Assembly: GCA_903813345.2 (NCBI GenBank)
Contig: CAIIXF020000010.1
Span: forward strand, 26,620,425-26,684,424
Reading direction: 5' to 3'
DNA from: Owenia fusiformis
Lineage: Eukaryota; Annelida; Polychaeta; Sabellida; Oweniidae
Length of the DNA: 64,000 nucleotides
Part shown: in pieces, positions 5,301-62,100 of the stretch
How positions within the stretch are numbered: position 1 is the stretch's first letter
Layout: every line of letters starts with the position of its first letter
Program-made: the position numbers and the translations under genes
Notes under the pieces: generated by a model
Database searches by the model: none
What the model saw: the letters and a program-made list of their open reading frames with translations, nothing else
What the model was told of the DNA's origin: nothing

Positions 5301-8300
5301 AATCTGATTGGTCAAACGTCAGAGCTGGGAGGTTTTGTTTATGTGTTGATTGACAGATTTGAATTTCATTTTCACTGATCAGATTTTCTCACGCTAAGAC
5401 AAAGAAGAGGTACTTTTCCATGACCCCAGATGAACCCTCCTTGGCCAATCAATGATCTAGTTTACATCAGAGAAGTGTGCATCTATGAATTCTGGGGTAT
5501 TCCCCTTTCCTTAAAACAAGTGAAGGATAAAATTGATTTATACATGTACAGGGCCAGGGGTATTTTGATATAAGTTGAACTATGTAAAGTATAAGTGTTA
5601 CTGAGTAACCCTTTGCAAAATTGGTAAAAATTGCTTCAAATCATGCAATACTTGGCTCAATCTAAGAGTGTGGGTGGCCAAAATAACTACTGGGTAAAGT
5701 AATAGGTAGCTTTTCTTTAAAATCAGGTAGTTATTAACTACCATAGCAACCGATTGCCTAAATGTTTTTATTTTATTTACCTTCAGAATAACAATGGAGC
5801 AGAGTCAGGTTTCCTTGACAAGAATGATGTCCAGACTGCTATTTTGACAGCCAACATGGCAGGAGACTCAGAACAACTTAGTAAGTGCTTATTATTTTAA
5901 AAATATGCATTTAAATGATAGCATTTTGGTGTGCATATATGTTAATACAAATGTACAATGTCATTTTAAATTTTAAAGTAAGCTACATCTCATGATTAAG
6001 TACATACATTTCATTTAAGTTATCCTTGCAATATATTGAGCAGGATACATGTTACATCAAACTTTGTGGAACAAGCAATATTTTTGTCTTTTAGAATGTG
6101 ATGCAATTGCCAAAATCAATGTTGCTTTGGAGTCTGGAGATCCAATGCAAACACTACAAGCTCTGCAGAACCCTCACGCTCAACTCCCACAAGTATTTGA
6201 CTTTGCGGCTCCGTTATATCAGGATGAATTCTTTAACATCAAATCTGAGAAAGGGGTAAGTTAGTCTTCTCTTTTATGTTTCCCATCTTGTTACGAATCT
6301 GTGCTGTAGTATTGACTTTTCTCAACATACCAACTCGCATTTTAGTACTGTAAATTCATTTAAGGTTTCATTTTAAATAAATAGATGTTGTAGCTGTCTG
6401 TGTTGCTTGTAAATGTTGTCATTTAATTTATTTACCATACCTGCTGGGTTCATTTCACCGGCATTGTCTTGTGCACTGTCTGCATTTATTGTGCTAGATA
6501 AAGTATATGAGGACACAAAAACCAACCCCATGTTATGGAATAACTTTCTCTATTATAATTTTGTATCTCGATGAAGGAACAGTAGTAAACAAGACTTTGA
6601 GATTGACAGAAAAGAGAAATCATAGTTTTACCATCCATCATAATTAAGTTATTTCAAAATTAAAGGCTTGAGTTTTTTGTAGATTCTGTAATGTGCGACA
6701 AGCTTTACATGTAGTTTTTTGTAATGTTTTGCAATGTTTGTTTTCTCATATGACAGGACTGTGGAGTGAAGGTAGTTTAGATTAATATTCATTGATTTTA
6801 AGCTTGCATTGTTTTGTGACCCTGCACTTGTTTCATTAATTTCCTTTTACACATTACTAGTCTATTAGATTTAATATGTATTGACTTAAATTTCACCTTG
6901 CTTTCCTTGTGTTACTTGACATATTCTGTCAATTTTTATTCAAAAAGGATACTTAAAATGCACATCCCCTTAGCAATATCTAAAGTTAACATCTCCCTTT
7001 TATTGGGAAATACACTCTACTGATCTTTTGTGATTTTGCTTTATGTATAATATAATAGTACCTGTAGATTAAACCAATAGATAAATTGTGAAATTAGTAG
7101 ATTTCATACATCATTATAACTTTAATTGCTTTTGCTAATGATATGGTATAAATGTAGTTTTCTTGAAATTTGCACTTTGATTAATGTGTATGTGATTATA
7201 AATAATAGGTAACACATTCCAAGTTCCACTCTAGAAATAATAGCAGAGGTAGAAGCTTTAATTTTTCACTATCAAATCTTATATTGCTACAAATATCACA
7301 GATGAGAATAACACAATGCTTGAACAGTTGAACATGAGTTGCAGAAATACTTTGAAAATTAGATCAACCAATAAATCACTTATAATAGATTTTCACATCA
7401 ATTTGTATTTGTTGTTGATTTACCCATCACTTCCAATCAAGTTTACTGATATATACTTTTACGTTTCTAGATTTATTATAAATCTTAGGCCGTAGCATTA
7501 TTCTACATTTGTGTTCATTTTGACAGTATACATGTACATTTATTTATGTTTTTATCTTCCAGAATGAACTTGAATATGCTGAGATTCTGGGTGGTGTAAA
7601 AGGTATGTTCTATTTCATACATTTTGCAAAATTAGTTATTCTAAGTTGGCTGGTAAGCAGAGAAAATAAAAGAAAAAGTCTTCAGGAAAATAAACATATT
7701 TCAACCTGTCAATGTATCTTAAGGTGACATTCTTATTTGATACATGGCATTATTAAAAATTACGTATTGCATTTCTAAAATTCAGAATGTCTTTTTCAAT
7801 TAAATAGGAGTGTAGTTTTTGAAAAATTACGCTCTAGCCCACTCCAGAAATAAACTTTACAAGATAATATTAAAATACAATTTTGATATTTTTGAATGGC
7901 ATTTTTGAATCAAAGTAGGTCCAATGACAATTTGTCCCAACACACACATACATATTCTGTCTATTTCAGTTTTGTCTGCTATTGGTAAGATCAACAAAGC
8001 TGTGGATATTCGCAACCCTGATGAGATAATCAAAGCTCTCAGCTACAAACACGCGCACATCAGTAACATTGATAAGACTCTACAGGATAAATATCTCACA
8101 CATTTAGCCAAGACAAGGCAGGCGAAGAATGATGAGGTAACATATAATATATTAAGATGGATTGCAAGAACAGTTGCCTTCCATTTTTGCTTTATTACTA
8201 CATACATATATTCTTTCCATGATGTATCTCTAATCTTTGTGTTGGACTGTTGGTCAGGCTATATTCCAGGATAGAAAATGATTAGAAAACTTAAAGCCAC

Positions 8301-11300
8301 TTCATTTCTTGAATTATCAAATATGTGTGGTATGATTTCACAGTATTTTCAGTTCTGTTGCATTTGACAAGCTTCTAAGAATCAGGAAAACGCCCATATG
8401 CTTGGCTTTATTGAGTTTGGGGCTATTTGGGGTAATCATTGCCAATAAAACTCATCATTTCATGATTTAGTCAGCTGTTGTGCAAAGAGCCTCCCTGTAC
8501 TACAGCTTGCAATGTTTGTGCGCCAGCTACCAAATAGACTGTTCTTTTGATTTGATTTTATTTTAATTTCAGATGCAATCATCAAAATTTTCCAGGCTTC
8601 CTTTTATGACAATTCAATATAGGGTGTCCAAAAAATTATTCAGTACATTCAATGTAAATTTTGTTGTGAAAGTGGTGATAATAATCTGCCAATTGAGTCA
8701 AAAACTACAGTTCCTTACAAAACATGCCCCAAATGTGCAACTTTCCTCTCTATGCACAATTCAATATGGAAAACAAAGTTGTTGATGATCCTCCTTCACT
8801 TATTTCTTTTTGAATGGACACATTTATTCCAAGAACAGCTGCTTTTGGGGCTTACATCCTCCTGATGAAGTGTTACAGCATCCATTGCATTCTGAATAAT
8901 GCACTGCCTGGGTGGCATTGAGCAAAAATGGAATCAATGGCAATGCTTTGGTGGTCAGCTCATCAGTCACAGAATGCAAAACATATGGGCAGCTCATTTG
9001 CCAGATCCAAATCCCCCAGATTTCTATCTTTGGGGATTTCTCAAAGCCAATGTGTATACTAACAGGCTCCTAACAAACTTAAGAGGGCAATAATTACCCC
9101 TAATTCGTATTATCCACATTGGTGTGTATAGGTCAGGGTCATTAACAACTTTTTTCGCATGATTCATTTGTGCATAGAGAGGAAAAGTGCCCACTGTGAG
9201 CATGTTTTGTAAGGTAATGTAATTTTTGACACAATTGACAGATTATGATCAAACTTTCAGAACAAAATTCACATTAAATGAACTAAATAATTCATAAACA
9301 CGACCCGGTGATCGGAAGAAATGAACGGAGGGGGAAGTACTGATTTTCGCAAGAAAATTCAACAAATCTGAAAGATTTATTTTTTCAAGAGAAAGTTTAC
9401 AACTGAATTGCAAAATGAATAGGCACAGTACACGAGGAATGTGTTAGGTCTTCTAGGATTTTTTTTGAACTGATGGACTTCTAAGATAAAATATCTATTA
9501 CAAAAGGCGCAGCGTCACCAATGTGCAAATGTCAATGTTTTTGCTATAAATCAAGCATGTCATTGCCGTTTTTTAAAATAAGTTTCCAAACGGTAGATAA
9601 AAAATAATCGAAAATAATTTAAATTGAACAGAGGGGGGAGTAACGTAGGGGGGTGGGAGTAATATGTCTTTAAGGTAGAAGAAATTTCCGTGAATTTGTG
9701 TATCTGAAAAATGAATTCAGCAACTCAGTAACAACTTGATGTTACAACTCAGAGAAGTGAAAATAGGGACATATGGAGTTATTGGAAATAAAGCCATGTT
9801 ACATCTCTTATCATATGTCTTAGAGACACATTACTCCCCCCCCCCCATTCATTCTCCCCCCCCATTCATTCTCTCCCCCCCCCCCTTCGTTCACTACCCC
9901 CCCCCCCCCCCCCCAGTCAATTATTGATTGTTTTTACATAACTTAGGGGAGGCATCAAAAATTCGATGTCGGATATAAAACTAAATAAATCTAGTTAGGG
10001 GGGGAGGGGGTTCAAACCCATTTCAGTTTGCTATCCGACAAATTTCAAACTTTTGGCAATTTCGACTCAGAATGCCTTGGGATGGTATAAAAATAAAGAT
10101 TTTACCTGCTGCTTTCTTCGTCAAGATCATTCCAATGGATTCTATTCCATCAATAGTTGTTAAAAATTACGCAAATTACGATAGGAATTAACAAAAACTA
10201 GATCGTGTTTAGCAATAATTTTTCAAATTCTCAAACCGGAAGTAAGCGATCAACTTTCATGGTATTTAGTTTTGGGGGAGGGGGGTCAGAGTCAAAACTA
10301 GATTTATTTAGTTTCCGATCCGACATCGAACTTTTGATGCCTCCCCTTATGGTAACATGTTTTACAAAACCAATGATGACAATAGTTTTGTGATAATAAC
10401 TTCACTTACAAGTATTTATTACAGGTCGTGTATACCCCTGTTGCTTGATTTATAGCAAAAACATTGGCATTTGCACGTTTGCGACGCTGCACCTTTTTCA
10501 ATAGATCTTTTATCTTAGAACTCCATCAGTTCAAAAAAAATCCTGGAAGACCTAACATATTTTCATGGCATTGCACCTATTCATTTAGCAATGCAATTGT
10601 AAACTTTCTCTAGAAATAATAAATCTCCAAGATTTGTTGGATTTTCTACCGAAAATCAGCTACTCCCCCCTCCCCCTCCCTCTCCGTTCATTTCTTCTGA
10701 TCACCGGGCGTGTTAAATTTCAAAGCAAAATATGCAAAATTGACAGAATTATTCAACTTTCTTACGGTCCTGTTTTTATTTGGACACTCTACTCTATGAT
10801 ACTTTAAAAAACATGAGGCCTTAGATTTCGCTGAGATTCAAATTCTTTGAAATCTCTTACCACCGTTGTTGGACAAACAGGACTTCCTTCCTTTTTTATT
10901 TGCAATCCATTTTTATTGATAAAACTTCCATGAGCATGCAGCTTCCCAGCGGATCCTGTCATATCTATTTGAATCATCATTAGCAATGAAGGACACCAAA
11001 TTAAGAACTGGTGAATCTATTGGCTAATACTGTTGTAATATAGCAAATTATACCTATGTTTAAAGTCTTTACGGCTGATCTACAATTTTTGTTACAGGTT
11101 TAACTTTTAAATTCAAAAGAGTTCATTATTCATATTTGGTAGGTGCTCTAAAAATGATAATCCTTAAAAGAAGGAATCAAGTTTTAAAGATATTTCAACA
11201 TTGTGTCAATTAATTTGGGATTTAGCCCTACTGAAATCAGCTGCCTCCAGATGTTCCCTACATCTCCATATTCCATTTGACATAACTTGAACCATCAGCA

Positions 11301-14300
11301 TGACATATCAAGACCCATTCCCTGGGTGATGTGAAAGCATAAAATCATTTCTATGGGAACTGGTACTTATTATTTTCTTTTTAAAAAGTTTTTGTTGCAC
11401 CATCATTGTATAAGCTATAGATTGGCCTGATTTGTGTACATGACTTCTCCGTATGTGACATAGATGTCTGTCAAACTTTTATTAGATATTTATTCCTCCT
11501 GCAGAGAATTATCACCAGATTTTTTTCACATCACTTTCCCAACCTTTCCGTGATCTGCACTTGAATTGTTACTTTCACTACAGCTACTTCCATCCTGGGA
11601 GTGATTACACTCTGGCCTCCATTTGGGTGTTTTATAGAGTATTTTGAGCTTTTGTCTGATTTTTCCATGGCATGGAGACGTAGCATGAAGCTGTGTGTGT
11701 CCCCCTCAAACGCGCTCAACTCCAGGGTAAGGGGGTGCTCCTTTAATCAAGCTCTAAACTTGTCTCAATATGTTCTATTGTCTTAAGAGTGGATTCTGAT
11801 AGCCTAAAACTTAAACATTTCAGCTCTTTCTTCTGTTATTTTCTTTGCCCACTCTTTGAACATTTTTTTCTGATTGGTCTATATGTAACATAAGGTGAAC
11901 CATCAGCACGTTGTTTCACGATCCATTTTATTTTATTGGTGCAGCTCTGATTCCCGCTTGGTGCTGCACTTTTTTGCTGCATTTTGGTGACGTGAAAGCA
12001 CAGAATCATTTCTTTAAGAACTGTTTTTTTTTTAAAGTTTTAGTTGCACCATCATAGAATTGACTTGATTGGCTTGATTGGTGTACATGACTTCTACATA
12101 TGTCGCATGAATGTCTGTCAAACTTTAAGTAGATTTGTACTTCTATGGAGTAGTACCACCTGGTTTTACATCACATACTCAATCTTTTCGTGAGCCATGC
12201 ATGCCCTCAATGGCTAGCTTGTTACTATATTACACTCCGACCTTTCGGAATTTTTAGGGGATTTCGACCTTAAGTCTGATTTTCCTGTAATGGGGAGGTG
12301 CAGCATGGAGCTGCGTGTACCCCTCTCAAATGCGCTCAACTCCAAAGTGAGAGGGGTACGCCTATAATAGTTGTGTTCTTTGTCATTCCAGTTCTTTTTT
12401 CTTTGCCCATTTTCTTAGCATTTTTTCTGATTGGTCTACGTGTGACATTATGTGAACCATCAGCACAATGTTTAACGACCCATTTCATTTTATTGGAGCT
12501 CTCTGATTCCCACTTGGTGCTGCACTTCTGTTGCCATCAGGGTGACATGAAAGTGTAGAATCATTTCTATGAGAACTGGAATTTGTATTCTTTTCAAAAA
12601 GTTTCGAATTTTTTAGAGGATTTTGAACTAAAGTCTGATTTTTCTCATGGAGCTGTTTGTGTACCATTCATTCTCGCTCAATTCCAGGACGAGAAAGATG
12701 CTCCTATGTGAACTATCTAAAGTGTTATATGCAGTGTCTATATCATGCTCTAAACTTGATGTTTCAATATGTTTAGGTGTTTCAATGTTTTCTATTGGCT
12801 AGAAGGGGATTCTGACTTCCCATTGTCATTCCAGCTCCTTCTTCTGTTATTTTCTGTGCCCACTATTTTTACATTTTATTTCTGATTGGTCTACTTTTGA
12901 CATAAAGTGAACCATCAGCATGATGTTTCACAACCCATTTCATTTTATTGGAGCTCTGATTCCGTTTTGGTGCTGCACTTTTTTGCTGCATTGGGGTGAA
13001 ATAAAAGCATAGAATCATTTCTATGAGAACTGGTACTTGTTTTCTTTTCAAGTAGTTTTAGTTGCACCATCATAGTATTTACTTGATTGGCCTGGTTGGT
13101 ACATGACTTCTGCGTATGTTGCATAAATGTCTGTCAAACCTTCAGTAGATTTGTATTCCTCTTGTGGAGTAGTATTGCCAGACTTTTTCAATTCACTTTC
13201 CTGATCTTTTCGAGATCTACGCTTGCCCTCATTGGGTGATTTGTTACTTTTACTATTTTTATTACCATCCCGGGGAATGATTACGCTCTGACCTCCTTTC
13301 AGATGTTTTAGAGGATATTTTAGAACTTGAGTCTGATTTTCCCATAATTGGGAGGAGCAGCATGGACCTGCATGTGTCCCCCTCAAATGCACTCAACATT
13401 AGGGTGAGAGAGGTGCTCCGATGTGAGCTATGTGCCGTGTTCATTGTCATTCCAGCTCTTTCTTGTTATTTTCTTTGCCCCCCTTTTATTTAGCATTTTA
13501 TTTTTGATTGGTCCATGTATGACATAACATGAACCATCAGCATGACAATACATGACCCATTTCATTTTATTAGAGCTCTCTGATTTCTGCTTAGTGTTGC
13601 ACCTTTGTTGCCATCAGGGTGACATGAAAGTGTCGAATCATTTCTATGAGAACTGGTACTTATTTTCTTTTGAAATAATTTTTTAGTTGCAGCATCTTAG
13701 TATAGGCTAGAGTTTCCTGATTGTAGTACATGACTTCTGCATATGTCACATAACTGTCTGTCAAACTTTCAGTAGATTTGTATTCCTCCTGCAGAGTAGT
13801 AGAGGCTTTTTCAATTTACTTTCCTGATCTTTTCAGGATCTACGCTTGCCTTTATTGGCTGACTTCTTTCTTTCACTATTGTTACAACCATCCCCAGAGT
13901 GATTACACTTTGATCTCCTTTCAGATTTTTTAGAGGATTTTGAGCTTCAGTTTGATTTTCCTGTAACGGGAGATGCAGTACGGAGCTGCTTGTTTTCCCT
14001 TCAAACTCGCTCAGCTCTAGGGTGAGAGGGGTGCTCCTATGTGAGCTATTTGCCGTGTTCATTGTCATTCCAGCTCTTTCTTCTGTTATTTTCTTTGCCA
14101 GCTATTTTAGCATTTTATTTCTGATTGGTCTACCCTGAACCATCAGCACAACATTTCACAACCCATTTTATTTTATTGGAGCTCTGATTTCCGCTTGGCC
14201 TTGGTGCTACTTTTGTTGCCATCAGGGTGACATGAGAGCATAGAATCATTTCTATGAGAACTGGTACTTATTTTTTTCTTCTCAAAAAGTTTTAGTTTCA

Positions 14301-17300
14301 CCATGGGCTAGATTGGCCTGATTGGTGTACGTGATTTCTGTGCAGAAGAGGTGCGGCATGGAATTGCCTGTGTTCCCTTCAAACACCCTCAACTCCAGGA
14401 TGAGAAAGGTGCCCCTATGTGAGCTATCTGCCGTGTTATATGCGGCGTCTTTATCAAGCTCTTAAAACTTGATGTTTCAATATGTTTAGGTGTTTCAATG
14501 TTTTCTATTGGCTTAAAGGGGGATTCTGACTTCCCATTCTCCACATTCGACAAGTTGCTGTTTTTCAGTTTATCTAGACAAATGCCCATAAGTGGCACCT
14601 CCCTCAGGTTTTGGTAAAGCTTACCCCACACCTACGAGGTTTTTTAATCAATACTTTTTGACAGTGTAATTGTATATAGCTCCATTTCTTTATTCAGTAG
14701 ATCCAGTTCCTGTTAGAACTATAGGAGTTCTTTCTATTTTACACTTTTTGGCCGTTTAGTTTGCTAAAGCAGTCCTAGGGGTATGGATTAGCGAAGACTT
14801 CTTGAGATTTCCACATTCTTGCGTTGGGATTTCATTCCTATGAAACTCCAACTCTTGAGTGTCATTCAAAGAAAAGATGTTGTCCATGCTTCCTACATCT
14901 CTGTTTTTTGTGTCATGTAAGAAATTTTTCTGTGGTGGCCCGGCCTTCATCGTAACCCCTTCCTATTAAATGTGGAATAAAGTATCATTCAATATGTCCA
15001 TGTGAAGATCATCCAGGACTACATTTCCACCATCCTCCAAGAAACCATCATCCATCTGAATCTGTCTCCCTTGTGACAGAGTGATAGCTGATCTACCATC
15101 TTGGAACAATATGATTGTTTCTTCCTGGCTGTACATGTCTATACTATTTATCTATAATTTGTGATATCCTGACTTTATTTTGCCTTCTTGGGCTGCTTTA
15201 CCATACCGATCAATCTTATAAGTTTACTTGAGAAACTTGAGGTAAGATAACGAGATATCTTAATATATTCTCCCATCGTCAGTGATTTCATATTCAAATG
15301 AATGTCAATAATTTCTTGACATTTGAATTTTATATGCTGCATTTCTTTGTTGAGCAGAGCCAGTTCCTGTTTTAAAAAACTGTGGGAGTCCTTTCTATTT
15401 AGTTATTTTTGGCCGTTTAGTTTGACAGAGCAGTCCTCCATCCGTGCATCCTACTTCCTGTGTCACGCAAGAGAATTTTCTGTGGTTGATGTATCTGCGG
15501 TGACACCTTCTTCACCTCTCCCCTGTCCTATAAAATATGGATTGAAGTGAGGGCATTGTTTCAACATGTCCATGTGAAGGCCATCCAGGACTACATTTAC
15601 AACATCTTCCGAGAAAACCCTCATCCATCTGAATCTGTCTCCCTAGCAACAGAGTGACATCTGATCTACCCTTTTGAACTAATTTGATTGCCTCTTCCCG
15701 GCTGCATACATCTATACAACTTATCTAGAATATCTGATCTCCTGACTTTATTCTGCCATCCTGGGCTGCTTTACTATGAGGATCAATGTTAAGTTTACCT
15801 GAGAAACTTGAGGTAAGATAAGGAGATATCGTAAGTTATTATCTCAAATCTTTTTTTACGCTTTGTTGTCGGGTAATGATTATTTAGTGAACAATTACAC
15901 ACTATTGTGTTGTTTTAATACAAAACAGATTACTGCACTTGTTTCAATCCTGCAACCACTTCACTTGAGAGCGCTGTAAATTCTTGATTGTATCCATTCA
16001 TTTTGATGATGCCATTGGACAAAGGATTATTTGCACATTGGAAGAAGGACACAGAGCCAACAAAAAGTTCTAAACATCAAGCAAAATGTCCTGTTTAAGA
16101 GCCCCATTTCTTACTACTTGGAATCTTTAGTACTAATACTCTCTATCAATATTCTACTTGTTGAGACCCAATCAATTTGAGTTTTTCTGAGATAATGAGG
16201 ATTTCATCTTGGGTGTATTAGTCTATATTGACTAAACTTGGAATATCTTCATATCACCTTGGGGATAGATACAAAATCCTAATTTATAGAGTCTAAATAA
16301 TTAGATTTATGTGTGAGAGTATTTGTAGATTCCATTTTCAATAGTAAGGATAGAGGTTCTTAAACAGAATATTAAAACTTAACGGAGGGCCTTTTCATTT
16401 TTGTTTGATACTAACATTTCAGCTCGTTTTAGGGCCATGTAAACTTTTTACACATTTATCTTGTTTAGGCCTGGGTGAACTATTTACAGATTTCTTGTTT
16501 TAGGGCCTGTGTAAACTTTTTACACATTTATCTTGTTTAGGCCTGGGTGAACTATTTACAGATTTCTTGTTTTAGGGCCTGTGTAAACTTTTTACACATT
16601 TATCTTGTTTAGGCCTGGGTGAACTATTTACAGATTTCTTGTTTTAGGGCCTGTGTTAACTTTTTACACATTTTATCTTGTTAAGGCCTGGGTGAACTTT
16701 TTACAGATTTCTTGTTTTAGGGCCTGTGTAAACTTTTTACACATTTTATCTTGTTTAGGCCTGGGTGAACTATTTCAGATTTCTTGTTTAAGGGCCTGGT
16801 GAACTGTTTACACATTTCTTGTTTTAGGGCCTAGGTGAACTTTTTACAAATTTCTTGTTTTAGGGCCTCGTTGAACTTTTTACAGATTTCTTGTTTTAGG
16901 GCCTAGGTGAACTTTTTACACATTTCTTGTTTTAGGGCCTAGGTGAACTATTTACACATTTCTTGTTTTAGGGCCTCGTTGAACTATTTACACATTTTTT
17001 GTTTTAGGGCCTAGGTGAACTATTTACACATTTCTTGTTTTAGGACCTGTGTGAACTATTTCCAAAGTGCTTGTTTGAAAGCCTGTGTGAACTATTTACA
17101 CATTTCTTGTTGTTTAAAACATTTCATGTTGTTGTTTCAGGGCCTTGGTGATCTACTGACACATTTTGAAATCCAGGAAGTTGTTGATGTTGTCAACAAG
17201 CAAGTGGAAGAGGAATCTGACTGTGAGTTACTATTTGACTTTATTTCACATTATACCCAACTTATCCAGTTTGGATGATTCAGCTTCTAATTAGGAATAA

Positions 17301-20300
17301 GGACCATTATTCTTGGATTTGGTGCAATGATTGCAAGTGAATTAAACTTGATAATATAATAAAGATTCAAGTTTTAATTTAGTTTTGTCACTCAAACCAA
17401 TTGTCGTCTCTTAACTAGTTCAAATTATACCCATGAATTAATGCTGTAAACATTGATTTCTTCAAGGCATTTCTGCTATTGAGGCCATTAATGATGCTGT
17501 GGAGAGGAGAAGATGTAATGATACATTGAAAGCCCTAGAGGTCCCCTCTGCCAAGCTAGTTGGGGTACAAGCAGACAATGTATCACACTACCAGGCACTC
17601 CTGGCAGAGGCTAAGCAGAAGAAAGCCAAAGTAAGAACAAAGACTAAGACTCTTTAGTATTTAGCTTAGATTACATATTGCACTGACTTTTTAAAATCAA
17701 TCTAGCTTGATGGATTTTGGGCAGTAAGATTTGGTTTCCATTGCAGCATTATTTTTATGAGTATTTTGAAAATGAGTATTATCCTCTCACCACCAATAAG
17801 TGGTGTTAAATCCACCATTCTTTGTGACCATCTGTGTATTGCAATAGCTTAGTAGTGTTAATGCCTTGTTCATGTTATGTAGGAGACCAATGATGCCAAT
17901 GCCTTACTGTGGCTAGATGAGATACATCAAACTCTGTGTATTGCAATAGCTTAGTAGTGTTAATGCCTTGTTCATGTTATGTAGGAGACCAATGATGCCA
18001 ATGCCTTACTGTGGTTAGATGAGATACAGCAAACTATACACCAGGCCAACAGCAATGCACAGCAGGGACAGAAAAGTAAGTGCAATGTACCCCACATAAA
18101 AAGCAGCAATCTTTTATCAAATAGTGAATGATCAAATGATGCTATTCTGCACCATATTGTTTCTGTAGAAATTTGACTGGTTGGGAAAGTAAAACAAGCT
18201 AAAAAATCAAGATTCAGAACGATTATTGTACTGAAACTGTACCAAAAAGCCATTGATGATGAGCAACAGTGTCAAAAATTGACAATCGTCAAATTCATTC
18301 CCTTCTTAGTCCTCAATATAAAATTAACTTTGTTCTACTTTTCAATACTAAACTACATATTTTATTAAAATACCATTTTTGTTACAGTGTCTGTTGCCAT
18401 GGCAGCCATCAACATAGCCATAGATGATGGCAATGTGCCAAACTTGTTGAAGCAGCTCCTTAATGTTGACGCTGGTCTCCACAGTGTTACAGCTGAGTGT
18501 GGCAAGAAATATCTCAAATACCTCACCAGGGAAAAGGCTGAAAAACAAAAAACAGGTGCGTTATGCATAGTAAAGAAAAATAGATATTTCAATATTTCAG
18601 TGATCTCCTCAGCATTATTTAGTTGGCGCAGCACCCACTTCCATTTGCACCAACTTGAAAATGAAAAAAATCATGAAACATTGACATATTTTGACCAGTT
18701 TTGGTCTCAATTGTAAAAATGAGAATTTTGCACCCACCTTAGAAAAAATCCTGGGGATCTGACTTTAATTCCTAGTATTTTTATTTTCCTATAAATGCTG
18801 CAAAAACCTTGCCCATTAACTGGCTGTGAGCCTTTAGGCAAGCTTATGACGCATCCATCAAGTTCAAGTTTTCTTGTTGAAGGTGATTGTGGCAGTGGTT
18901 GGATGATGAATAGGATACGTGAGGGCCACAAGTTCTACTTCAACTGCCATAACATGGAGTACAGCTGGGAGAGGAGGCCAGACTGCACTAAAGATTTCTC
19001 TCTTCTCAACAAAGAAGATATACAGGTGAGGAAAATAACCTTTCCCAATATGATATAATCCATTTATGAGATATATTCAGGTGAAAAGTGACAAAATTTC
19101 ATGAAAATGTACTAACAAGGCAAAACTATGATATCTTGTGACCATATTGATGATATTTCAGGCCATTATAAGTGAAGCTACATGTGCTCATGACCGCCAA
19201 GCTGCGTTCCTGGCCAATGAACACTACATTACTCTTCTACAGTCAAGGATAAGGGGGTTCCTGGCCCGTAAAGATTACGCGAAGAGAAAAGATTACATGC
19301 TTCGTCAAGTACCAGCTGCAACCAAAATACAGGTAGAAAGAAAATGTTCTTTGTCCACAGTTGTTTTAGATTTGTAGATTTGAAGATTTTACAATTGCTG
19401 TAGAGTTCATTATAGTTCTAATGAAGAATCTTTTAGATGCTGGCTCCCTATAATTCATAGCTCTCCATTGAACACTTCAGGGTTGTTAACAGTAACTTAG
19501 TAAAGTTAAGAATTCCTAAGTCTATAATTGTTCTCGTACTTGTACTCGTCTTTTATATTCATGGACAAATAATTTAGGAATTTCTTAACCTTACAAAATT
19601 TCTGGTAATTCCCCCTCATGAATTGATTGACCTTCCACTAATTGTAGTGATTGCACTTTGTCTGTTTCCAGTTGATGCTTTCTTCACTTACCTTTAATAT
19701 GAAGCGTGCTCCAGTTATTGTGTATACCTATAATATAAAGTTACAGTGTTATTATGTGTAGATGTACTTATAACATACAGTGTGCACTCTTGTAGAGCTG
19801 GTGGAGAATGATCCTGCAAAGGAGTCTTTATAAGGAGAGACTAGCAACCCTTCACAATAACCCTAGATATGTAGTCAGGGTATGTCATCTCAAGCATCAC
19901 CTACTATACTATTCTAGTGTATACTTTAAAGTACTCACTTAGAAACATGAAGCTATTTAAAAAATATTTTTGAAACCTGAACTGAAGTGCTGAATGCTGT
20001 TAGAAATTATTTCAGTGTTTTAAATAATTTGATCGAGCAAATAATCTTAGTTTCTATTTTTTTTAGCTAAAAACATTAGTTTTATATTCCTGTTTTAGAT
20101 CCAGAGCAATGTCCGGATGTTTCTTGCTAGAAAGAAATACACAAGTAGACAGAGTTATTATAAAATGCATGTAAGTCAGGAGTTTCATTTCATTCACAGC
20201 TTTTCTGATGCATTGTAGTTTGTTTTTCCTGATGCATGTCATTTTTGTGATGCATTGCAGTTTGTTTTCCCTGATGCATGTTATTATTGTGACGCATTGC

Positions 20301-50600: not shown

Positions 50601-53600
50601 AAGACTGATATCTAATTAAAAGACTTTACGTTTTGTTTAGTAATCATCAATATTATACAATTTTTACTTTGTAACTGTACTTTCAATAATGCATTCTAAA
50701 ATCTTGAAATTTTAAGAATATAGTAGCTAATGTGGTAGGCCATACTTGAAGCCCCAGAGATTCTGTTATTCAAGTTTTATTGTAATTTATGTCTGATTTA
50801 CGATTTATTTCTTATGTACATTTTTACTCTCTAAAGGAACAAATAATTAAATTTTCTGTTTGTCACAATTTTACAATACGCAGCAGTTGAGTGCAGGTCG
50901 TAGGTTAATGACTTCTCGCGCTAATGGGTCATTGACCCCAGGCAGTGTTAGGTCATTGACCCCAGGCAATGCTAGTTCATTGACCTCAGGCAGTGATAGG
51001 TCATTGACCCCAGGCAATGCTAGTTCATTGACCCCAGGCAATGCTAGTTCATTGACCCCAGGCAATGCTAGTTCATTGACACCAGGCAATGCTAGTTCAT
51101 TGACCCCAGGCAGTGGTAGCTCATCAAAGTCAATAAAGTCATCAAGGTATAAACTAAGAGCAATCACTGCAGGCTCTGGCAGCATGAGGAGACGTAGAGT
51201 AAGAGATGGCCTGAAATATTGATTGATGTGAATCACATTAAACATGTCCCAATCAGTCAATCACACCTTCAAAACCATCCCCCAGGACTTCAACATTGTA
51301 ATGATACAGAATGTTGCCCTATCAGAATAATGATAAATTATGTTACAATTTTGTGAATCTGAGAAGCATTCTTTGAAAATTAAGACATCCTTAACTTCAA
51401 TATACGGGTAAAAGTAACAATTTAGGCTATTCTGCAAAAATCTCATTCTTCAAAACTACCTCCAAGGAATTTATTATTCTGATAGAGCAATGTATAAACC
51501 AATCAACTTAAAGTGCACCCTCACCCATCTAGTATCCCCACCAAACCCAACAATATAATGTAATTATTATGTGATCCCAATGTTTTGGAATTATATTTTT
51601 TTATTAAATAAATCTGTCTCACTTAAATCTCCTCTGTGAATTTCAGTCTTATGTTGTTAACTCTTTCAATCTGTGTTTGAAATTAACATTGAAATTAATC
51701 ATATTATCCATTTTCCAATCTAATATGTATTGAAGCATGTAATTTTCATGTGTTCAACTGTTGTCTGATGTTTTAGAGCCCAGCATCATCAAGAGGAGGT
51801 GCCTCCCCAGCTATGGAGAGTTCCGCTGATATTCCCCAGCATAAGTTTTCTAAGGCTGAACTCCTACTAAAGATAAAGCAACCTGCACCACTTGCAGGTA
51901 AAGATAATTCCTTTCTAAAATATACTATTTTTAATATCAGGATCAGTTTAAGGTGGCTGAGTCTGACATTATGATAAGATGGAAGCCTTCTTTGTCTCCT
52001 TGTATTATGTATTGTCTAAGAAGTATTACAATTTATTCCTCACATGTTTGAGGTCCTTTGAGATATCCAAAGCCACTCAGAGTACATGATACAAAAATAC
52101 AAATACTTAGAATCATGTGTGTATTACTTTAGTGTGTGAGACACTAATAAACAAATTAATTTACTAACTGGGATATTTTTAAGTAAATCTAGTAATCTTT
52201 CAGGCATATCTTCAAGCAGTCCATACTCAGCATTTAAGACAGTTGATCAGAGTGGAGATGTTATTGGTAGTGGGAACACGCACTTAATGACTCGTCATCA
52301 TATAGAGCAGCGCAACAACGTCTTCAATCTTCTACATGAAGACAAACTCAAGTTACTGCAGCATATGGAACCAAAGAGCACCATTCCGTGAGTCTAGATT
52401 ATTTCACTCGATATGATATTTGTTGATTTTTCCAGGGTTATAATAGAGCCTATTGATAAAATTAATCATTGTATTTCCCCTGAGCTAATTGACTGTTTAT
52501 TTCACATTTGATAACTTCAGGAGTGTCTGCCTGTTGATGATTAAAAGTCTTAAGCCTCAGTCACATTTGATCTATGGCAACCATACTGCGACTGTAGCTT
52601 CACAAAATTTAGAGAATTGATCGGCATAAACTATGAAATATAGGGAGAAGCTGTACAATGAAGATTTTCTACATAGATTTTGTAAAGCTACAGCCACTGT
52701 TTGGCCACGATAAACCAAATATGACCAAGGCTTTACATTGATGTATTTTTAGGACCCCAACATTTCACTTTTTGAATCCGGGAAGGATGATTCCTTGGGG
52801 GCAAGAACATAAAGGTAACCATATATAAATGTGACTATTAAAACATATACAATTAGAACTTATATCTATTAAACTAACATATATAATGATATAATATAAT
52901 ATACATGAAGGTAACAATCAGAACTTAAAGGTAACCTTATATCTATTAAATTAGCATGTGAACATATATGATAATATAATATACATGTAGGTAACAATCA
53001 GAACTTAAAAGGTAACTATAAGAACATATACATGTAGATGACTGTCAGGCTATACAGTGATAGCTTCATCAGAAATTATATCTATTAACATACAGAAGAT
53101 CATAAAGCTGACTAACTAATGAATGTGTTTTATGTAGATGAGCCCTCATCCCTGGCTGTATGGTGGACTGGTGGGACTCAACTGCTGCACTACTCATTGC
53201 TTAAGACATCTAAGGGTAACTACACTTTATGTTTGTGTTTTTCATCAATGATATTTTTGAATTGTTTCATGTTATCTGTGGCAAATGTATGCAACAAAGC
53301 AGGTTCATATATCAATGTGTATCCACAAACATAATTATGTTTCATGGAGGGGATAAAGCTGTGTTTTTGAGAGAAATTGATTTTTATTTTAAATGTTCAA
53401 TTTCATATTTAGAGGTACAATTCACCATACCTAATACCTGCTCTAAGTGCTCTTTTCAATTAATAGTCCTATTGAACTTCATTCAATACATAGAGTGTTA
53501 ATGAAATCTTGTTTTATGTTTTTAGAGGTAGAACGTAAGCCTGATGTCATCTGGCCAAGTACAGGTCAGGTTGTGCATAGCTGTGTGTCACCTGACACCT

Positions 53601-56600
53601 CCCTTGTAGCCCTGGCCTTAGACAGTGGGAATGTGGCAGTCTGGGATAAATATCTAGGTAAGTTCATATCATTTGTAGCTTATATCCAATCATAGCTGTG
53701 TGTCACCTGACACTTCCCTCATAGCCATGGCCTTAGACAGTGGCAATGTGGCAGTCTGGGATAAATACCTAGGTAAGTTCATATCATTTGTTGCTTAGTT
53801 ACATCACTTCATTCATGGGTGAATATACTGTATGCATTGTATATAGGCTAAGTACCTGTATCTCATACTTGAGTGGGTTTGGGCTAGATATCACCCAGGA
53901 ATATATATATCTGAGGAACGGGCAGGATATGTTGTATATGTCCCACTCCAAGCCATATGTTGGCAGATATAATATATCCTTCCCACTCCCGGGAATTTTT
54001 CAAAAGTTTAAAAAAAATTAATTATGAATTTTAAAAAATTAAAAAGTTCAAATGTTACAATTTCATTGTATTGAACTAAAGGAATATTACAAAAATGTTG
54101 AATATAAATTGTGCTTTTACACTACAGGCCTATCTTGTCATTTGAAAAAGGTGGAAAAGGTTCTACCCCTTATCCATTCAAGTATGAGATACACCAGTTA
54201 TGTACAGGGCGTATCAAAAAACGCAACAAGTAGTTATCTCGTAAAATCACAAAACTAGTGATGATTACATCAATTTAATTCAATGTACCATAAAGCCACG
54301 TCTCTCCTCTTTGCAATGATATGTCATTCATTCACATGTGGTAATGGTTGGGTGAGAAATCCTTCCATTTGCACAGTGGGTCAAAATCGGCTCTGCTTCA
54401 AGTTTTAGATATTGCAAAAATTAGTACAAAGCCTAACTGCCAATGGAAGTTCCGCTGACTTGAATTGTTGTGGCTTTTTCTTTTGGAGCTATCTCAGGAG
54501 CATCTATGCTCATAATTCCTCCACCAGAAATTGAAAAACCTCGAGAAAAAATTGCCCATGGGCTGCTTTTCTCTGGTTTAACCCACAGATGACTCAGGGC
54601 TGACCATGCATGACATGGACAGATGAGCGCATCTTTATGTGCAAGGAAGTGGTGGCAATTTGGAGGGGTTATAGGATATATTCTTGCAAGAGTATGAGTA
54701 TGAACACTTTACTGTCTATGCCACACCTGTCACACCTTCTTCCAATAGCCCCTATGCCCCTTGTACTGATTTTTACAATGTTTAAAACTTAGGTTCGAGC
54801 TGAATTTTGCTCCACTTTGCGAAATTAATGATTATTCGGCCAGTCATGACTCCCTGTGAATAAATGATATTCAATTGCAAAGAGGAGTAATTTGGCTTTT
54901 TGGTACATTGAATGAAAAGGATGCAGTCAGCATTGGTTTTATGTTTTCTCCAATATTGCATCAGGCTCCGTACACTGACTTTTGCGATGTTTATAACTTG
55001 GTCCCAAGCTAATTTAATTTTACGTGGCTTTATGGTGCATTGAATGAAATCAATGCTGTTAAGTTATCACTGGAGCTCCAATGGAGCGGGACATACGAAA
55101 AATATTTGCCCAGATATGGAATATATTCCCGGTTGATATGTCCCTGAAACCTCATCAGGTATGGAATACATAAACATATCCCTCAGGATATACCCTATAT
55201 CCAAAGCCTCCCAGCACATAACCCTTATATATGTAATTGCCAAATGCTTAGATGTGTGTGTGTGTGTAAAACGATAATACATGTACATTTGCATTAACAG
55301 TATGTTGTTGTATTCAAGGAATGCCAAGAAGAGTACAAAATGCTAGTGATTCTGCTAGAATTACAAGACTTGAGTTCCTGAATCCTGCAATTTGTCCACA
55401 AGATGATTTGCAGTACCCACCATACAAGATGCGTGCTGCCACCTATCTGCTAGTATGCTGTGATGATGGCAGTGTGAAATATATGAATTGTGGGATGGGG
55501 GATAATTCCCCCGTAACTGAAGTTCCCCAGAGGTGAAGTTTTTATTTGTTTTAAACTTTAATTGATTGTATAAATAACTGCTTCGTTTTTGGTATTTGCA
55601 ACATCAAAAAAGTTATGGGCCACCCTGTATTATTCATATAATCCATATGACATACATTATTTCAGGGAGTGCCACACAGAGTCTATTAGTAGTCTAATCC
55701 ATCCACTCCCTGGCCTGCCTCAGGTGGTGAGTAGATCCTATATATAGTCACAATGTAGTCGCTCTAAGCAGTGTATTTATATATCATATTTGTATTTGAG
55801 ATGCGGTCAGTATGAATGAAGTTTAGCATTTTTTCACAACACTGGAATATTGATTTGATTTAAATCATCACTTAGAACAACAGATTATACATCTAAAACG
55901 TTCTCAAATGTAGAATGGCTTTTAAAAGTCTCATTTGGAAGATTTGAAATTTGGGTGAGCAAACAAACATGACTTATGTTGCTTTCAACTTCATTGCATT
56001 TTAACGCTGTGCACCCTTTCAGAAGTTACTGACCTTGTAGGTTGTACATAAGGCCTCAATAGCTATTGCAAGACTATTACTTTTATTAATGGTTGTTCCA
56101 AGAGGAGGGAAAACCCCATTATTCAATTGATGACATACGATTTCCTCCTTCGCGCACCTCCTTTCCCGGAAGTACTTACTCTCCTTCTTAGTTTTCAAAG
56201 TTTTCAATATTGATCTAGTTTTAAACCAATCAATGATCGACTCGCTAAACCAATCAGCGACGATGTCATCTCAATACAGATTTAGATTATAAGCGTATGT
56301 CATCTTTGAACCCTGGGGTTTCTCCCCCTCTTGGTTGTTCCAGTGTTGTTCCAGTGTTCCCTCTTTTAATCAGAATGGAGCTTTACATTATATTTATTGT
56401 GTTAAAGGATTTAAGCCCTGGACTCAATGCTTTGTTTGCTGAATCATTCCTCTTGAAGGTATTGTTTTCAAATCTTTGCATGAATCGGGCACAATGAAAC
56501 GACTTATACATTTCCAGGGAAACTTTTTACAAGTTTCAAGTTGTAACTTCCGTTTTTGTCAGTCAGTATCATGGATTGTCACCTTGACAATCATACAACA

Positions 56601-59100: not shown

Positions 59101-62100
59101 TTACAGCTCAATTGTTGGGTAGATGGTCTGCTTCACCAGTTCACCTGGTGCACTAGCACTGTTGTTAGCAGTGAAGATATATGGCCTCTCCTATAATAAT
59201 ACAATAGCAAAAATCATACAATGTTCATGACACTAGGACCACCTTAAAACCATACAATATTCACCAGACTAGGACCACCTTAAAACCATACAAGGTTCAC
59301 CACACTAGGACCACCTTAAAACCATACAATTCACTACACAAGGACCACCTAAATCATACTTTGATTGCAACATAAGGATGTATATACTTACAGCAGTAGG
59401 GCACTTGATCTCAGTAGGTTCCCAGTTGAGGACTGTTGTCTTATTGCCCACAGGTTCAAACTAGTGCAACAACATAACAAATATATATTCATGCAATATA
59501 TATGTGTATCTTATAAGATCTCATGTGTTATAACAGTTAAGTGAAGGATATTTCTTTTAAATGCTGCATGGACATTTGTAATAATTTAAAATATCAATTT
59601 GATTAAGTATCCTCTTCATATGTTTGCAAACTGGAAGTTCTCCTTTTTGATTGAAAAAGACATATGTTCATATATACATTTTGGTATTGGTATATAAAGC
59701 ATGTAGAAATGACTCCCTAAACACAAAATAATATTAAGAATAAATACCATTCCATTCCAGAGTCCTATCCCACAGGCATAGTGACCAAGTAGGCCAGGAT
59801 GGAAGCAATCTGGGGACCAATATTCTCGCCTTGGCCGACCATTCTCCTGCAAAAATCAACTGTTCTATTATAAATTTGCTCATCCAGGATACCAATGTTC
59901 TTCAATGATGAAATATGAACATTTCAGATATTCTTGCCGTAAAGGATGAATTAAGGGCTCATTAACAAAACTTTTTTTTCGCATTTTATTTTTTCATTTT
60001 GTCTTTCTAAACTCACATCCATTGGTGGTGTAGCATCATAAAGTGTTGGCTGAAGGACCACAGTGAAGTCATCGCGGTCTTCGTAACGGTTGCTGGCAAT
60101 CAGCTCTTGCAGGACATGACCATATGCACGCTGAATCTCCCTCAGTCGCTGTCTGTCATCAGGGTCAGTTGCACAGGGGCAGGCAATACTGCAAGAAACG
60201 TACAATCAATATGCAATGAGTCAATATGTAGTATCGGATTTATTCAAGCCACAGGCGATATACCAGGTGTTTATGAAGTTTAAAAAGTAAGGTTACTTAC
60301 TCTTGCCAGCCATCACAAAGAATATTGTCACTCATGATGGGTAGAGGAGTGATATCAAACATCAAGACAACATTGATGAAATAAGGTTACTTACTCTTGC
60401 CAGCCATCACAAAGAATATTGTCACTCATGATGGGTAGAGGGGTGATATCAAACATCAGGACAACATTGATGAGGGCACGGGGCATGTTGAAGTGGAAGT
60501 GATCAAGGGTAGAACGGACATTGTTCAAGTAGTTCTCTGGCCCTAGTAGGTCCTGAAATCATTGCCAGAAACCTAATGGTACAGTCAGTAATAAATTAGA
60601 GGCTCTCTCATGTCTTTGTGCAAACACCCAAATTCTGAGAAATAATGGAATGACAAGTAGATTGACAAGCGATTTTTATGATCTTAAGTGAATCAAGCTG
60701 ATCAAACTTTCATTTTAGTAAATGTTTAATATACGTAGATTACCCAGTCATCACAGACACGACACAGGTCATTTCCTCCAATCAGCAATGTTACCAGTTT
60801 CCAGTCATTGGCAAAGTCAACATCAGTGTTGGCATTCATCTTACGCACCATGTCTTGTGCCTGTTCCAGAATATCTCTTCAAACACAACAAAGAGAGAAG
60901 CCACAAAGTGAAACATCATTAATTAGAGTCATCCGTACAACATACAGTACACTTACCATAGAATGAAGAACATATATAATCAGAGTTACTTTCCTCAATC
61001 CCTCGACTTTTCCTTTATGAAAAATCTTTTAAATGATTTTAATGTAATTATAGATGTCCCTTGGCTTATGTAGCTACACTATAGTTAAAACAATCGCAAT
61101 GAAGGGGATATCACTGATCAATGCCCCATGAAGCACATCATGCCATGTATTGTTTCCTTTTCAAGGTCAAAAAGTATTTTTTTCAACTTGCTTCAAATTG
61201 ACCAATCTTTTCTTTCAAAATCATCTACATTAGTTATCAGAAGTTCAAATCTGACTATAGATTTGAGATTTCACCTTCAATGACCTTCTTATGTTCAAAA
61301 AGGTCTTTTTCAACTTGCTTCAAATTGACCAATTTATTTTTTCAAAATCATCTACAAGTTCTCAGAAATTCAAATCTGACTTAAGATTGAACTCATAATA
61401 TTGTGAGCAACTAGGTGGTGACATTTTGTCATGCTAATGCCTTGTTATGTATGTACTCACTCTGCAGTTGATCCGGACACAGCAACATTGAAGCCAGCTG
61501 CTTGATCATCCACGTCCACCTCATCTGTAGAGAAACCACGCAGGAACTCACTAAACTTTCTCAGGATGTCTGCGCAATAAACAAGATTTGTTTGTAAATG
61601 CATGGATCAGCATGGCACTGTTTAATTGTGCACTGTGGATGGTTTAGTACAATATTGTTATTGCTCTTCAAGTGTGCATGGTAATGTGCAATTATACATT
61701 GTAATGTTCAATTGAACTTACTTGGCATGGTTCTGATGCCCATCTCATAGCTGTTCCTTCCTCCAATGCTGAAATTAAAACATTTATTAGACTGTACAGT
61801 TGATATTCTTCATGAATAAGTTAATCTGCTTAAAAAGTAGGGATGGGACGGTTCGTTTCGGTTCGGTTCGGTTTTTCGGATCATCAGCCGTCGGTTCGGT
61901 TTTTTCGGTTCGGTTCATTCATTTTAAGGATTTGTATTGATTGACATGCTTAGCTGCTTTGTCTCTGACTTCACTGCTGACTGTCACTTTCTTTTAATAC
62001 AACCAATAAAATAACTAATTTATGCTTGTACACGACTAAAGAATATAGTACCAGGGACCACATGATTGATTACCGAGGGATACGAAAACGCGGATATGAA

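Follow-up and report, generated by a model that had tools for sequence, protein, structure and literature searches.

A probable exon-seeded minisatellite at an acceptor of an IQGAP gene, with similar arrays in kinesin and myosin genes

The stretch of genomic DNA analysed here (64 kb, hereafter the window) carries an IQGAP gene on its + strand, and a long intron of this gene contains, close upstream of its 3' splice site (acceptor), a minisatellite that is homologous, far beyond chance, to the acceptor together with the initial 26 nt of the exon that follows. We interpret this array as an exon-seeded splice-boundary minisatellite, of the kind known as a mirage, which is spliced out with the intron, and we give this reading a probability of about 0.85. 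The gene is recognized by its IQ motif and its RasGAP and RasGAP_C domains (Pfam) and by matches to IQGAP1 and IQGAP2 in PDB (best E 1.5e-20); a protein search of PDB and Pfam with the IQGAP segment itself yielded no useful external relative. The window, with about 35% G+C, is one part of one assembly, and the genome searched comprises 498 Mb in 525 contigs.

The array and its homology to the exon boundary

The junction between the end of the intron and the start of the exon reads GTTGTTTCAG followed by GGCCTTGGTGATC (coordinates in Table 1). For the array upstream of it Tandem Repeats Finder (TRF) offers two descriptions, a 36-bp unit present 19.1 times (80% matches) and a 72-bp unit present 9.5 times (90%). 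A preliminary description, made from the letters of the window, had counted about 19 copies of a 36-bp unit at 16430–17158; the copy number stands, but the extent has to be corrected, and the unit length is right for the 3' half and wrong for the 5' half, where units of two lengths mostly alternate. The array had further been placed about 25 bp before the real site, and it is indeed close by, although its end lies ~29 nt upstream of the last base of the real AG. The unit peptide then read as GLGELFTHF, against GLGDLLTHF in the exon, is readable, but the frame of the 3' half is shifted by 1 relative to that of the exon, owing to the spacer. By eye, the interior of the array consists of near-identical 72-bp dimers, and the edge unit at 17071–17111 is decayed.

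A 44-mer across the boundary aligned to the array with a score of 47, a value reached by none of 1000 dinucleotide shuffles (maximum 30), none of 300 shuffled arrays (maximum 28) and none of 3404 other segments of the window (maximum 30). Alignment of units and boundary against shuffled controls was the check that the preliminary description had proposed, and its claim that the units are copies of the acceptor and exon start is borne out, the boundary outscoring every control both as the 44-mer and as the 28 exonic nucleotides. Without gaps, the first 26 nt of the exon agree at 22 of 26 positions with the units at 16936 and 17008; the best match elsewhere in the 64 kb is 19 of 26. That a T-rich minisatellite should resemble an acceptor by chance is hardly credible: the intronic positions -30 to -1, taken by themselves, do not match the array significantly (36 of 1000 shuffles were as good), as a chance likeness would have it, yet the exonic 28 nt alone score 32, above all 1000 shuffles (maximum 27) and all 3404 other window segments, which refutes this explanation. 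The array was also considered as a dispersed repeat, a candidate that was rejected when a genome search with 16800–17230 returned two matches, both in the array itself; as this search skips common words, the two matches do not prove that the array is unique.

Table 1. Positions of the IQGAP boundary array, its surroundings and the other boundary-spanning duplications of the window
Feature	Position	Strand	Remarks
IQGAP intron	8137–17140	+	~9.0 kb, phase 0; 8136 is the last base of the upstream exon (...QAKNDE)
Minisatellite of degenerate copies of acceptor and exon start (decoy acceptors)	16426–17111	+	TRF
5' half of array	16426–16783	+	mostly 72-bp dimers, alternating 34- and 38-bp units
3' half of array	16784–17070	+	35–36-bp monomers, closest to exon (best 22/26)
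Decayed last unit, spacer and real acceptor	17071–17140	+	last decoy AG 17081; next AG is the real one, 17139–17140
IQGAP exon GLGDLLTHFEIQEVVDVVNKQVEEESD	17141–17222	+	donor GTGAGT; first 26 nt homologous to array units
Second acceptor-spanning duplication, IQGAP	17831–18034	+	102 bp x 2, 98%; exon copies from 17883 and 17985
Donor-spanning duplication	53576–53797	+	115 bp x 2, 93%; exon WDR93-like, 23.2 bits (below Pfam cut-off 27)
Donor-spanning duplication	60285–60472	-	94 bp x 2, 97%; putative exon from open frame only

Boundary-spanning copies in kinesin and myosin genes

Profile searches of the genome for two motor-protein families gave 92 myosin and 144 kinesin matches, and the 60 best loci (30 myosin, 30 kinesin), which amount to 50 distinct regions and 174,400 bases, were analysed for similar arrays. 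The clearest case comes from the family search table and lies outside these 60 loci: in a kinesin gene (L064, G000:C2:23265500-23270500) a 159-bp unit is repeated 17.9 times (97%), each unit holding an acceptor and more than 100 nt of a motor-domain exon. The unit peptide runs SLGGNSHTVMIACVSPADSN...RYADRARKIKNKPV, the copies are themselves matched by the kinesin profile, and the last copy continues into further kinesin-like coding sequence. Homology to paralogous exons backs arrays of 61 bp x 4.5 (L019), 42 bp x 3.5 (L038) and 87 bp x 3 (L058), together with two-copy cases at L025, L046 and L049. Others were recognized by eye, namely 64 bp x 17 at L050, a second array at L038 of 93 bp x 3.9 and two donor-side arrays, 82 bp x 8 at L059 (after ...LKAMLVKYELELNKWRSG) and 41 bp x 4 at L026; at these four arrays the exon is presumably the one we take it to be.

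Some further repeats at these loci are recorded as observations in their own right. At L013 only ~4 exonic nt, by eye, fall within the repeat. A 61-bp array (L042/L066, G000:C12:25284600-25288200), of which the sequence inspected contains at least 49 copies, stands beside a kinesin exon, most of its copies carrying a donor-like AAG/GTATGC; the array's own exon is not confirmed, and the same is true of an array of 129 bp x 7 at L033/L067. Downstream of a myosin exon, in L022/L065 (positions 88–2027 of L065, G000:C4:24504800-24509000), lies an array of 122 bp x 15.9 (97%) whose unit seems to contain an entire small exon along with its acceptor and donor, not confirmed by homology. Twelve tandem matches to myosin head positions within 18–84 were found at G000:C9:37986009-37994334, where alternative exons of a myosin heavy chain are probably clustered.

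Tandem duplication is pervasive between the kinesin and myosin exons, and exon boundaries are not preferred. Exons for the main test were taken from central family-search matches, used as queries, and from paralogues, with no hand-picked peptides, and an edge was called positive if a tandem copy spanned it by at least 12 nt on each side. Among 278 edges of homology exons (139 acceptor-side, 139 donor-side) seven were positive before inspection and six after it (L019, L025, L038, L046, L049 and L058), all acceptor-side; the positive that was dropped, edge 994 of L049, proved on inspection to be intron only. L050, L026 and the 93-bp array of L038, which are positive only with hand-picked peptides, and the donor-side cases L059 and L047 stand outside this count, as do L064, L013, L042/L066, L033/L067 and L022/L065. 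Scored in the same way, control points lying 100 nt or more from every homology exon were positive in 304 of 2903 cases (32 loci), and mid-exon points in 9 of 477 (six loci, five of them among the positive loci and the sixth L047), with the caveats that long arrays count at many points and that non-homology points may include unrecognized exons. Set against the non-homology points, the edges show no sign of enrichment. Many of the tested edges are ends of homology hits that may not be true splice boundaries and several of the arrays seen by eye lie outside the hits, so that 6/278 is probably an understatement of the true rate. Two earlier versions gave 16 positives in 292 edges, with looser offsets, and 10 in 294 (nine after inspection), the latter with controls of 261/2808 and 11/491; both used eight extra peptides picked by eye from arrays and were thereby biased toward positives. 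Most simply read, duplications occur throughout genes, and the ones that happen to span a boundary are a tolerated subset whose outer copies are spliced away.

Direction of duplication and choice of the acceptor

The preliminary description had left open whether the exon seeded the array or the array supplied the exon start; the direction from exon to array is now favoured as the most likely. The exon begins with the residues GLGDLLTHFEIQ, of which LLTHFEIQ aligns with LLTQAEIQ, LLWLDEIQ and, more weakly, FLDKNDVQ in internal repeats of the same IQGAP. Because LLTHFEIQ appears to belong to IQGAP's own repeat motif, the exon would be the conserved partner, an argument of moderate weight by itself; a stronger one is that kinesin and myosin arrays of the same layout carry conserved motor codons, so that the exon is likely to be the source. 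It is quite improbable, in our view, that an intronic minisatellite came first and supplied the exon start, with loss of the original acceptor and extension of the exon into the last unit. The sequence relation of array and exon is in itself symmetric, and GLGD, the first four residues, is without a clear counterpart in the other IQGAP repeats, as such an origin would allow; yet LLTHFEIQ spans from the array-homologous segment into the repeat motif, and the units of L064, L019, L038, L058, L025, L046 and L049 hold motor sequence that the paralogues have conserved too, an intron being an unlikely source of it. The second acceptor duplication in the same IQGAP gene (102 bp x 2, 98% identical) illustrates an early stage.

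Acceptor strength was scored with a weight matrix of 93 acceptors from the same genome, taken at loci without recognized boundary arrays. The real AG at 17140 has 7.7 bits (99th percentile) and is the strongest AG of the array region, the 30 AGs within the array ranging from -5.8 to 5.3 bits. The decoys had been described as acceptor-like, and so they are: the 15 AGs in TTTAG context other than 16432 score 4.0–5.3 bits, at the 48th–80th percentile, 16432 (13th percentile) and two TTAAG sites (40th) being weaker. At 17067 and 17081, the two array AGs closest to the exon, the scores are -5.8 and -1.8 bits, and in the rest of the intron one AG of 413 attains the score of the real one. An earlier matrix of 143 acceptors, which contained array copies, gave the real AG 9.1 bits (89th percentile), a score reached by none of 409 other AGs of the intron. 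Just 5' of the array, at 16409–16422, TACTAAC followed by ATTTCAG forms a branch-point-like and acceptor-like pair, the AG of which lies at the 80th percentile of that 143-acceptor matrix.

If the decoys were used, as alternative acceptors giving isoforms or transcripts targeted to nonsense-mediated decay, they might tune the level of IQGAP, with array length as the setting. We consider this unlikely. The decoys do score like median acceptors, and nearly all would introduce a stop, as had been claimed: reading from each array AG to the end of the exon, a stop is met in 29 of 30, the claim failing at AG 17014, from which the frame stays open and 42 codons would be added. An intronic 38-bp variable-number tandem repeat in TERT is also mentioned, in the portion of the source drawn on here, in connection with splicing (PMC11830802). 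On the other side stand the rank of the real acceptor above every decoy of the array, the single AG in the rest of the intron that reaches its score, and the amphioxus mirages, reported in the parts of the two papers cited as not disturbing splicing (PMC3087553, PMC3902484). Very unlikely, too, is a local RNA structure that masks the decoys and exposes the real AG; an inverted repeat, GTGTAAAC..TTTACAC, is present in many units of the 5' half, but predicted accessibility is 0.04 for the real AG against a median of 0.03 for the 18 main decoys, and the array folds with no more favourable energy than first-order Markov controls do (z -0.18, 40 controls).

Several observations weigh against the reading of an exon-seeded array spliced out with its intron. 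AG 17014, at the 40th percentile and in an open frame, makes some upstream use possible, and that the last AG is the one used in IQGAP is suggested by protein continuity. The intronic part of the boundary, as noted, lacks significance on its own. The match of the units to the exon varies from 17 to 22 of 26 along the array, those nearest the exon not being uniformly the most exon-like. Finally, the alignment of the internal IQGAP repeats is short, the other repeats being 15–30% identical to that of the exon.

Six other acceptor arrays, in five genes, were scored in the same way, the real site in each being assigned from protein continuity, and every one has at least one decoy equal to or above the presumed real site (real and top decoy, in bits: L019, 5.0 and 6.0; L038, 7.3 and 7.3, and 6.7 and 6.7; L050, 4.5 and 5.1; L058, 2.9 and 3.9; L064, -1.4 and -0.4). 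As decoys match the real site in these arrays, strength is unlikely to be the general rule and position probably decides; we would prefer proximity to the downstream donor, that is, exon definition, as the basis of site choice.

The homology, the acceptor-like decoys, the stops and the arrays in other genes are read from the sequence; from them we infer a mechanism of duplication, use of the last AG and exon definition. Our explanation of the exon-seeded array is that a segment of ~36–42 bp, which took in the 3' splice site together with the initial ~26 nt of the IQGAP exon, was duplicated in tandem, probably via slippage or unequal exchange, and then expanded toward the intron to ~19 copies, every copy except the exon-proximal one being removed with the intron. 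Such an array would be tolerated because productive mRNA would come from one copy only, the one followed by the complete exon with its 5' splice site. The last AG would most likely be chosen by exon definition, aided in IQGAP by the stronger acceptor and by the decay of the nearest decoys.

Known mirages, the host group and other duplications in the window

In amphioxus the name mirage was given to tandem repeats across exon–intron boundaries of Adh3, and such repeats have been described in globin genes as well (BflGb6/BflGb9); in the sections of that report used here they occur on acceptor and donor sides, many units keep AG or GT, and the Adh3 data and reverse transcription PCR of globin suggest that splicing is undisturbed (PMC3087553). 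A later amphioxus paper, in the part drawn on, adds PGBD5 and cites troponin C (PMC3902484). Like these mirages as there described, the IQGAP unit spans the boundary (acceptor plus 26 nt of exon start), the authentic boundary is at the edge of the array (array end 17111, acceptor 17140), the units keep splice dinucleotides (30 AGs, 15 of them in TTTAG context at the 48th–80th percentile) and, by eye, inner units are homogenized and the edge is divergent. The dimensions differ: 36 bp x ~19 in IQGAP, as against 150–160 bp in 3 and 6 units in amphioxus BflGb6 and 10–72 bp in Adh3.

The host differs as well, the mirages described in the passages used having cephalochordate hosts and the present one being apparently a protostome. 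A locus resembling bantam is present in the genome and includes TGAGATCATTGTGAAAACTGATT; its 53.2 bits (E 9.3e-8) fall short of the Rfam cut-off, which is 61. Bantam is, to our knowledge, limited to protostomes, and with this microRNA the host thus appears to be a protostome and not a lancelet. In the open-licence literature searched no mirage outside lancelets turned up; where two other papers have the word, it means something else. Judged by its sequence, the IQGAP array has the structural features of a mirage, the kind being known and the host group apparently new. Since mirages recur in an apparent protostome, and the literature searched had them in lancelets only, tandem duplication in intron-rich genes may generate them quite generally as a by-product.

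Related phenomena have been described elsewhere. Human genes in segmental duplications contain internal tandem repeats (mean 30 bp x 4), some at exon–intron boundaries, that alter gene structure and, in the parts of the paper drawn on, are considered as an origin of new introns (PMC2812944). The resemblance lies in the expansion of a minisatellite at an exon–intron boundary; half of the human repeats, however, lie in coding sequence, and the new introns are proposed for recent paralogues, whereas in IQGAP the copies sit in the intron as decoys of a boundary that already exists. Intron gain through duplicated AG/GT proto-splice sites was proposed by Rogers (1989, as cited in PMC3087553), and to the extent that the citing paper conveys it, the likeness is the duplication of a segment with splice signals and the difference that in IQGAP an existing intron is lengthened, no new intron being shown.

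Arrays of near-identical 3' splice sites offer natural competition tests of how the spliceosome chooses among equal AGs, and they bear on the birth of exons and introns; decoy copies, which resemble exons, may lead to errors in gene annotation. It is tempting to go further and to speculate, doubtful as we hold it, that a protostome genome is studded with boundary minisatellites whose outermost copy is always the one used, be it strong or weak, that position (exon definition) decides in place of AG scanning or site strength, and that variable copy number sets the amount of productive mRNA from each gene. Were this so, the arrays would be a large natural set of length-variable splice-site competition experiments.

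The window holds four boundary-spanning tandem cases, the IQGAP array included (Table 1). In the second IQGAP duplication it is the exon copy at 17985, not that at 17883, which continues into the IQGAP exon. A Pfam search of the gene at 60285–60472 gave no match. Within the same IQGAP intron as the array, positions 11300–14460 contain degenerate repeats in several families of 4–6 copies, spaced ~360–1320 bp apart, and at 50929–51124 there is a 24-bp repeat x 8 (SLTPGNAS) with one open frame on each strand.
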